From Nitrospirae bacterium CG2_30_53_67 (lineage in GTDB: Bacteria > CG2-30-53-67), in the NCBI GenBank assembly GCA_001873285.1, contig MNYV01000093.1, forward strand, positions 1-14,569: a stretch of DNA of 14,569 bases. The letters run 5' to 3'. The first letter of the stretch is position 1; each line of letters begins with the position of its first letter. Under the pieces are notes generated by a model. It was not told where the DNA came from, made no database searches, and saw nothing but the letters and a program-made list of their open reading frames with translations. Position numbers and translations under genes: made by a program. This document shows positions 10,876 to 14,129 of the stretch, one piece after another.

Positions 10876-10985
10876 GACACCCCTTTCTTCCTGCATTCTG
10901 AGAAGGTACTTTCTTATATCACAGAATGGGGGAAGTTCCAAGAACAAATCAACACCCCGCCAAAGATGCGGTTTCTCAATTTAGG

Positions 10986-11165
10986 ATAGGGCCACTAAGT
11001 GGTCCTGTTCGTAAATATGGTAACGTACCGAGAGTGCCGTAGAGCAGTCTCATCAAGGCGCGCGACTGCGGCGTACCCCTCTGGTACGCCGCAAGGAGTG
11101 GAACGCCGAGGAGACTGCCCTACGGCACTCGAATGCGACCGTATTTACGAATAGGGCACTAAGGT
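10986..11165. repeat. GTAC-centred palindromic element, copy 2, with flanking imperfect direct repeats
   Basis: The palindrome spans 11008-11151 (144 bp). Outer arms TTCGTAAATATGGT (11008-11021) and ACCGTATTTACGAA (11138-11151) match at 13 of 14. Middle arms (11032-11051 and 11111-11130) match at 19 of 20. The central GCGGCGTACC (11068-11077) pairs perfectly with GGTACGCCGC (11083-11092) around CCTCT. Outside the arms, ATAGGGCCACTAAGTGGT (10986-11003) and ATAGGGCACTAAGGT (11151-11165) are imperfect direct repeats, as a target duplication might leave. It has no coding capacity and shares its core with the copy at 7547-7664. It could be a non-autonomous mobile repeat or a strong RNA-structured element. 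Confidence 0.75.
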
Positions 11166-11285
11166 AAGCAGGGCCTTCAGGACGGCGTCCACAGTGCCCT
11201 CTGCGGCCTCACAATCGTCCGGGTCCATGAAAAAGAGCCGCCGCGCCCGCTGCCAGGGTTCGGGGAACCCGGCACGAATGAAACA
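11145..11285 (-). pseudogene. Possible C-terminal remnant of a minus-strand gene
   Basis: Read on the minus strand, this stretch encodes about 46 codons that look like genuine protein, including AGFPEPWQRARRLFF and a helical ending around AVLKALL, then a TAA. The stop codon lies within the outer arm of the palindromic element. No start codon or ribosome site exists for it, and the next gene's promoter occupies its upstream end. It may be what is left of a gene cut by the repeat. I do not recognise the family, and chance coding cannot be excluded. Confidence 0.3.
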
Positions 11286-12575: not shown

Positions 12576-12941
12576 TCACTTTTTTGCTTGTGAACCCATG
12601 AACCGTATATAGATAAAGAGATTGAAGGCAAGAACCAGGATGCCCAGGAGGACCTGAATCTTCCGCGTGAGCATCCCGGGATAAAGGACCGGAAGAATGT
12701 AGTGTTCTACAAACCCGCCCGAATAGCCTGCCTCTCCGCCCATCATGCGGAGCCGGTTTTCTAATGGGGTAAGCGGGCAGACCCACCCCGCAAATTCAAT
12801 AAGCGCGGCCCAAATCACGGCCGGCACATGCAGCCAAATGATTTTCGGCCGGCTGAATGTCAGCGCCGCGCCGAAAACCGCGAAGAGGATGAAGGCGACG
12901 TGGCCTATCACAAGGAGATCTGCAAGGAGACGGTAGGGCAT
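12576..12941 (-). CDS. DUF2784 family membrane protein
   Basis: The 121-residue product matches the DUF2784 family, small bacterial inner-membrane proteins of unknown function. Three to four hydrophobic segments are seen: about 4-27, 33-52 and 98-114, with a weaker one near 79-92. The family hallmarks are present: WLHVPAVIWAALIEF, GWVCPLTPLENRLR (conserved Cys-Pro-Leu-Thr-Pro-Leu-Glu) and the GYSGGFVEHYILPVLYP stretch. The ATG at 12941 is chosen because homology begins there and a GGAG lies about 9 nt upstream. The open frame extends to 13187, but those extra codons run through AT-rich spacer and do not resemble the family. It converges on the DJ-1 gene with a 22-nt gap. No function can be stated. 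Confidence 0.88.
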   Translation of the reverse strand: MPYRLLADLLVIGHVAFILFAVFGAALTFSRPKIIWLHVPAVIWAALIEFAGWVCPLTPLENRLRMMGGEAGYSGGFVEHYILPVLYPGMLTRKIQVLLGILVLAFNLFIYIRFMGSQAKK

Positions 12942-13059
12942 GGTTTTATACTCCACAAACGCCGTATCCGAATTATTGCATAAAACATGGTCCGTGTGAA
13001 TAATAAACAACACTCTTCCGCGATGACCCAAAAGATAAGCGATGGTCAAAATAATGTAG

Positions 13060-13092
13060 TTACAGATTGTAAATCGTATTGACAATTTGTAA
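13060..13092. repeat. Inverted repeat at the truncation point of the DUF4143 ATPase
   Basis: TTACAGATTGT (13060-13070) and ACAATTTGTAA (13082-13092) are inverted copies matching at 10 of 11, with an 11-nt spacer. The right arm overlaps the first codons that still read as ATPase homology (Q-F-V-K, 13083-13094). It could be the old operator of the ATPase gene, or a site involved in the deletion that removed its start. Confidence 0.5.
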
Positions 13093-13112
13093 AACTGGAA
13101 GAGCCGGACCAA

Positions 13113-14129
13113 ATGGAATTTGCCAATGAAGACCCGCGGGGCTTTCTTGCCGGATATCCTGACGGGGCGGTGCTGGATGAGGTCCAACGCTGCCCTCCAT
13201 TATTTTCTTACCTCCAGGGAATCGTGGATAAAAAAAGAGAGGCGGGTCTGTTTGTCTTGACCGGCTCCCGGCAGTTTGGTCTCATTTCCGGAATTACCCA
13301 GTCGCTTGCAGGCCGAGTGGGCATTCTGCATCTGCTGCCTTTTTCGCTGACGGAGCTCAAAACCGGCAAAATAGCGCCCGAAGGTTTGAATGAAATGCTC
13401 TTTAAAGGATTCTATCCCCCTCTCTATGACCGTGAGCTTTCACCTTCGGGGTGGTATGCCAATTATGTTTTTACCTATGTTGAGCGGGACGTCCGGCAGA
13501 TGATCAGCGTGCGGGATCTGAGCGTCTTTCAGAGGTTTGTCCGTATGTGCGCTGCCAGAACCGGACAGATCCTGAATCTCTCCGGACTGGCGAATGACTG
13601 CGGTATTACCCACAACACGGCAAGGGCGTGGCTATCGGTATTGGAGGCGAGTTATATCATATTTTTACTCCAGCCCCATCACAGAAATTTTGGAAAGAGA
13701 CTGATAAAAACCCCCAAGCTTTATTTTTACGATACCGGTCTTGCGGCATGGCTCTTGGGTATCCAGGATATCGGGCAAATGTCTATACACGCCATGCGGG
13801 GTTCTCTTTTTGAAAGCTGGGTTGTCAGTGAGTTGTTAAAGGGGAGATACAACAGGGGACTGGCTTCAAACCTTTATTTCTGGAGAGACAACACGGGAAA
13901 TGAGATTGATGTGCTGGTTGAAAAAGCGGATACCCTTATTCCAATAGAGATAAAATCAGGCCAGACCATAACAAAGGACTACTTTGCAGGGATTAAGAAG
14001 TGGCTCAAGATCACTGACAATGTTGCGAAACACCCCTATATTGTATACGGCGGCAACGAAGGCCAAAGACGACTGGGTGTAGAGGTCTTGCCTTGGAGAG
14101 ATATAGGAAAGGTGTCTGCAAAGGTATAA
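13113..14129 (+). CDS. AAA ATPase (AAA_14/DUF4143), N-terminally truncated, probable pseudogene
   Basis: Members of this family are ATP-binding proteins of about 380-400 residues, common on mobile and accessory DNA, with no settled role. This frame gives 338 residues from the first ATG. Walker B is present in GAVLDEVQR (D22, E23), followed by the LTGSRQF sensor strand (49-55) and a helical, winged-helix-like middle. The C-terminal DUF4143 part carries a PD-(D/E)xK-like pattern, GNEIDVL (262-268) and PIEIKSG (277-283). Walker A and about 50-60 N-terminal residues are missing. Homology-like codons (VKLEEPDQ) continue upstream of the ATG to about 13083 and then hit TGA at 13080. No P-loop is encoded upstream in any frame of the spacer, and no ribosome site precedes the ATG. 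It should not bind ATP normally. Confidence 0.8.
   Translation: MEFANEDPRGFLAGYPDGAVLDEVQRCPPLFSYLQGIVDKKREAGLFVLTGSRQFGLISGITQSLAGRVGILHLLPFSLTELKTGKIAPEGLNEMLFKGFYPPLYDRELSPSGWYANYVFTYVERDVRQMISVRDLSVFQRFVRMCAARTGQILNLSGLANDCGITHNTARAWLSVLEASYIIFLLQPHHRNFGKRLIKTPKLYFYDTGLAAWLLGIQDIGQMSIHAMRGSLFESWVVSELLKGRYNRGLASNLYFWRDNTGNEIDVLVEKADTLIPIEIKSGQTITKDYFAGIKKWLKITDNVAKHPYIVYGGNEGQRRLGVEVLPWRDIGKVSAKV

Follow-up and report, generated by a model that had tools for sequence, protein, structure and literature searches.

A nested palindrome in Nitrospirae bacterium CG2_30_53_67 as a probable member of a bacterial MITE family

Structure and boundaries of the palindrome

The contig MNYV01000093.1 of Nitrospirae bacterium CG2_30_53_67 (14,569 nucleotides, in the following called the window) contains a long nested palindrome, about 164 bp plus flanks, with its centre near position 11079. 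What kind of element is it: a mobile repeat, or a folded structure that the host has kept? An initial annotation of the window had considered both and had described 11008-11151 as a palindrome between imperfect direct repeats. Our analysis indicates that it very probably belongs, as one of many copies, to a family of bacterial MITEs: short transposable elements, here about 164 bp long, that are non-autonomous.

The palindrome itself is real, but the described stretch covers only its inner part. Alignment with two-ended copies and the predicted fold define a complete element at 10995-11163 (+ strand), a nested near-perfect palindrome over its whole length with CTAAG on both sides. Three nested arm pairs with one centre had been proposed; we found two inverted-repeat pairs with a common centre. 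The middle arms 11032-11054 and 11108-11130 (both +) are 91% complementary to each other, the outer pair 11004-11021/11138-11155 is 89% complementary, and the loop lies at about 11076-11083. The RNA folding energy of 10985-11175 is -111.2 kcal/mol, compared with an average of -63.1 over shuffles (z -10.7), and the DNA fold of the palindrome deviates from its shuffles by z -10.0. The stretch of 160 nt starting at 11001 surpasses all others of the window in stability, by more than 20 kcal/mol. The claim that coding capacity is lacking holds: no open reading frame of 80 amino acids was found within 10995-11163.

According to alignment with other copies, the inverted ends span 11000-11021 and 11138-11158. 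The left terminal inverted repeat, TGGTCCTGTTCGTAAATATGGT (11000-11021, +), is conserved in the own genome and in relatives; the right one, ACCGTATTTACGAATAGGGCA (11138-11158, +), has lost one base of the consensus GGGCCA. Outside of them lie the target-site motifs, CTAAG at 10995-10999, whose central A is the duplicated base and whose inner AG acts like element sequence, and CTAAG at 11159-11163. Both direct repeats noted earlier exist, but they are not target duplications. One of them, ATAGGGCACTAAG, is the element's own 3' end minus one base. The other, ATAGGGCCACTAAG at 10986-10999 (+), overlaps the left CTAAG and corresponds to the 3' end of another copy, of which it is a relic; a tandem pair with one common CTAAG is available for comparison at L011 5949-6222.

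Two further features of the window were recorded. Upstream of the first gene, positions 119-275 contain a second palindromic repeat, which is AT-rich (AAATTCGAAATCCGAAATTCTAAACAA ... TTGTTTAGAATATTTGAATTTTGAAATTCG), with related stretches at L080 474-545 and 888-963. In the region 12828-14129 a frame starting at 13113 resembles an ATPase without its N-terminus and is preceded by a short open frame; this is possibly a broken gene.

Copies, forms and empty sites

The number of copies in the parent genome, a check proposed in the initial annotation, is high. A search yielded 40 scored near-full-length matches, and end-pattern searches together with retrieved regions produced 69 two-ended rows, of which one was an overlapping artefact. 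The own genome of 2.36 Mb therefore contains at least 68 distinct two-ended copies, about 70 in all, and additionally single-ended or truncated ones. The copies share terminal inverted repeats of 22 bp, TGGYCCTRTTCGTAAATAYGGT. Measured from TGG to CCA, 49 of the 68 belong to a main length class of 159-163 bp, 17 have 172-223 bp and for the most part contain additional small hairpins in one arm; the remaining two have 108 and 111 bp. Pairwise identity within the main class ranges from 78 to 99% with a mean of 89%. Three copies located at separate loci are nearly identical, with about one difference per 161 bases, so the movement is recent.

All five relatives belonging to the same GTDB family have the repeat, which was absent from both sister-family genomes searched; all genomes compared are drafts of about 70-250 contigs. 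Of 386 genomes searched, seven have the conserved 22-base core: the six of the family and, at a contig end, a distant draft. In this draft of another lineage (G064, L050 1500-1552) the core GCGTTCCGCTCCTTGCGGCGTA...TACGCCTCAGTCGCGCGCCTTG is surrounded by a different outer palindrome, and transfer, contamination or a wider superfamily come into question as its source. Exact patterns of the ends and the core gave no match in IMG/VR, and no similar sequence was found in plasmid and phage records.

Other genera of the family carry a long form, 261-266 bp in length, that has two additional hairpins, and relatives contain mini-palindromes of 44-61 bp that consist of little beyond the two ends. Long, short and mini forms may have arisen by deletion or addition within the palindrome while the ends were kept. 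Several side observations concern these forms. The additional part of the long form (L215-L220 and L223-L225, relatives) comprises about 100 bp folding as two hairpins, in one of which the genera differ by paired changes (CCCGGTGAAGG/CCTTCGCCGGG versus CCCAGCGAAGG/CCTTCGCTGGG). The mini-palindromes L213, L214 and L260 of the same-genus relative G001 have CTWAG or a near match at both flanks. Small palindromes such as CCTGTCTGCCATGGCACAGGCAGG occupy fixed places in one arm of the copies L063, L067, L069, L071, L079, L085 and L086, as if a second, smaller repeat inserted into the first. A different palindromic repeat, whose end is TTGACGGCTTCGTAAAAAGTCC and whose inner motif is similar (L035 at about 1908-2000, L094 at about 1296), is possibly a sister family.

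A comparison with relatives, also proposed earlier, revealed sites without the element. The cleanest one is the junction of rplP and rpmC, which carries a copy in L082 and is empty in four relatives (G001, G003, G004 and G005), with contiguous flanks in G001. Conversely, copies of G001 at two places (L196 and L209) have empty counterparts in the own genome, with small flanking differences at those junctions. At the window locus G001 contains no copy but a region with an intact gene of 194 amino acids (L188 3218-3802); the own genome retains 116 bp of it, the 3' part, adjoining the element at 11163-11278 (- strand). The simplest reading is a deletion beside the element, although the opposite order is also conceivable. 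A single copy conserved at the same locus in all relatives, which had been named as evidence against a mobile repeat, does not describe this family of about 70 copies with an empty orthologous locus in the same genus.

Taken together, the shortness and lack of coding capacity, the shared inverted ends of many copies, a duplicated target base and insertion polymorphism with empty sites strongly support the earlier suggestion of a non-autonomous repeat of the MITE type.

The target site and the mobilising enzyme

CTWAG or a closely similar sequence flanks each copy at both ends, with A or T as the central base in nearly all cases. Left and right carry the same central base in 86 of 103 copies from the own genome and relatives, compared with 48 expected (own genome: 58 of 68, expected 34.5; relatives: 28 of 35, expected 13.7). 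Because it is the same on both sides, whereas hairpin pairing would need complements, it is a duplicated target base; conserved pairing of the CTWAG flanks was rejected for the same reason. Nearest-neighbour copies had the same central base in 17.7 cases, with 24.4 expected. The base is not common to nearest neighbours and therefore must have been supplied by each target and not carried by the element. The same test rejects an inherited central base, as in site-specific recombination requiring identity.

With respect to the length of the duplication, 5 bp (the entire CTWAG) can be excluded, since deviations from the motif are mostly located at the outer positions (51 of 396, inner positions 8 of 396) and those of the outer C and G have no mirror on the opposite side. 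The left outer C deviates 14 times and the right outer G 19 times, the left inner G never and the right inner C once. The inner rate is about the one found inside the inverted repeats. Taken by itself, the T/A pair shows a modest difference, with 18 outer and 7 inner deviations. At the rplP site the relatives read TTATA or CTATA, and the junctions of the copy are CTAAG (left) and CTATG (right); consequently, the inner A is not derived from the target. Duplication is proven for the central base, and its length is 1-3 bp. A 3-bp TWA duplication within C..G, in the manner of PIF/Harbinger, is possible and compatible with the site, but the inner positions do not behave like the outer ones. The counts are better explained by a duplication of 1 bp, with which the rplP site agrees. 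The inner T/A positions resemble element ends more than part of a 3-bp duplication, which is a poorer match to known enzymes.

These counts and the inner A of the rplP site would suit a recombinase outside the usual DDE enzymes, which would join true ends AG...CT to the two half-sites of the palindromic target CT-W-AG and duplicate a single base pair. In this case each junction would recreate the target and any stop codon inside it. The modest difference of the T/A pair argues against such an enzyme; moreover, we know of no enzyme class that makes a 1-bp target duplication, and a single base pair is shorter than any transposase target duplication known to us. We therefore consider this mechanism unlikely.

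For the MITE-type element we prefer the following course. A transposase provided in trans would cut at the inverted ends, and these might be joined to a staggered cut C|TWA|G, as by IS5/IS1182 and PIF/Harbinger enzymes, a step we regard as about as likely as not. Insertion at CTWAG recreates a stop codon contained in the motif and leaves the neighbouring protein unchanged, and selection would have removed insertions within coding regions.

We searched for the corresponding enzyme. In six draft genomes we detected neither an autonomous element nor a cognate DDE transposase with such ends, and no long element bounded by them was seen among the single ends examined in relatives. The own genome contains three DDE_Tnp_1 (PF01609) genes, two of the IS1182 family, all with other ends; two relatives had no DDE_Tnp_1 match, and no DDE_Tnp_4 (PF13359) gene was detected in the six genomes. 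The ends of the IS1182-family elements (L093 and L094) begin with G like those of the palindrome, but otherwise GAGCCTGTTGCAC and GAGACTGTGTCA differ from them, CCTGTT of GAGCCTGTTGCAC being all they have in common. The copy in L094 reads CCCT-TAA-GAGACTG...CAGTCTC-TAA-TGGG. This is a TAA duplication, so an IS1182-type enzyme was active in the lineage. An IS5/IS1182-like transposase may be the mobiliser, although we would give the opposite outcome about the same chance.

Placement, host function and related systems

The copies are located between genes or with the stop codon of a gene inside CTWAG. The latter applies to 15 of the 68 copies, and the genes concerned include full-length rplP and dnaN, with Pfam domains matched to the end. 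The rplP product L16 covers model positions 1-132 of 132, and the C-terminal domain of the DNA polymerase III beta clamp reaches position 121 of 121, the protein ending with MPMRV. Truncation as the cause of these border stops was rejected, since all 15 genes stop inside CTWAG and none continues into the element; among the genes neighbouring the copies no truncation by insertion was seen. No gene enters the element from its 5' side, and overlapping calls are predicted gene starts. The gene calls are based on a simple custom codon-pair score, and single cases may be wrong. A mobile palindrome can thus lie at the stops of the essential genes rplP and dnaN: CTWAG holds the stop, and insertion restores it.

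Unoccupied CTWAG sites in the retrieved regions were coding in 66 cases, between genes in 47 and at stops in 13. When coding sites are left out, stops account for 22% of the unoccupied sites (13 of 60) and likewise for 22% of the copies, so the placement needs no special preference for stops. Target choice and loss of coding insertions explain it.

The frequent position directly 3' of stop codons would also be expected if the host kept the repeats as RNA or DNA elements at gene 3' ends, acting as terminator, mRNA stabiliser or regulator. The fold of the + strand is very stable, exceeding the - strand by about 15 kcal/mol in 49 of 49 copies, and compensatory changes are more frequent than in shuffles (29 cells; shuffle mean 11.2, maximum 19). 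However, the stop-codon placement equals the target distribution. A T-tract following the hairpin, as in intrinsic terminators, is present in only 2 of 69 (+) and 4 of 69 (-) cases, and no terminator was found; one copy lies inside a ribosomal operon, between rplP and rpmC. The orientation to tandem genes is balanced (21 versus 20). Paired cells amount to 93.3%, compared with 92.3% in shuffles, and several both-side changes are private to single copies. The excess of paired changes could stem from template correction between the arms, which fits as well as selection. Strand-specific RNA selection was rejected: G.T pairs occur five times in the consensus and A.C pairs not at all, yet new mismatches of both types are about equally frequent (G.T at 30 sites, A.C at 20). 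In Rfam, the window had no hit reaching the gathering score, the elements none that is credible at E<=5, and the long form of the relatives none. A role for the host is thus quite improbable; neither it nor selection on the folded form, as raised in the initial annotation, is needed to explain the repeats.

The second origin suggested there, a REP/REPIN-type palindrome moved as single-stranded DNA by a Y1-HUH (RAYT) transposase, is very improbable: the element is an intergenic nested palindrome, some REP nucleases insert next to CT, and the own genome has one full Y1_Tnp gene (327 codons, L096), but this gene is flanked neither by these ends nor by palindromes, the duplicated base originates in the target and not in the donor, and long inverted ends with a target duplication are foreign to REP, which has no target duplication and a RAYT gene with flanking REPs. 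Dispersed intergenic palindromes are common to both, whereas no RAYT locus carrying the present repeats was found.

The element shares with the bacterial MITEs Correia/NEMIS, RUP, ERIC, YPAL and MITEAba12 (PMC2229807, PMC6382973) its shortness, the lack of a protein, inverted ends, a target duplication and many mostly intergenic copies; transcripts would form long stem-loops, and also for those MITEs the mobiliser is often not known. According to the published descriptions it is set apart from them by end sequence and host group. Its target is CTWAG, compared with TA in RUP and Correia and 9 bp in MITEAba12, and unlike in these elements the palindrome covers the entire length and is not AT-rich. 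A TWA or C|TNA|G target is shared with PIF/Harbinger, NuwaII, Tourist MITEs and the bacterial IS5 family (PMC4482050, PMC2213677). For NuwaII the length of the duplication is stated as uncertain, 3 or 5 bp, whereas the present family excludes 5 bp and allows 1 bp. Except for IS5 these systems are eukaryotic, and no transposase of the PIF/Harbinger, NuwaII or IS5 type with the ends of the palindrome was found here. The kind of element is therefore already known; the family appears to be new in sequence as far as the searched literature shows. The main text of papers on repeats of Geobacter-type genomes, which the palindrome may resemble, did not contain its sequence.

A gene-bearing element with TGGYCCTRTTCGTAAATA ends would identify the mobiliser, and its absence would mean that the mobiliser is extinct or encoded by the host. 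The repeat represents a large, recently active MITE family with clean empty sites in a poorly sampled bacterial group, and it raises a testable question, the identity of its mobiliser and the length of the target duplication which this enzyme makes.
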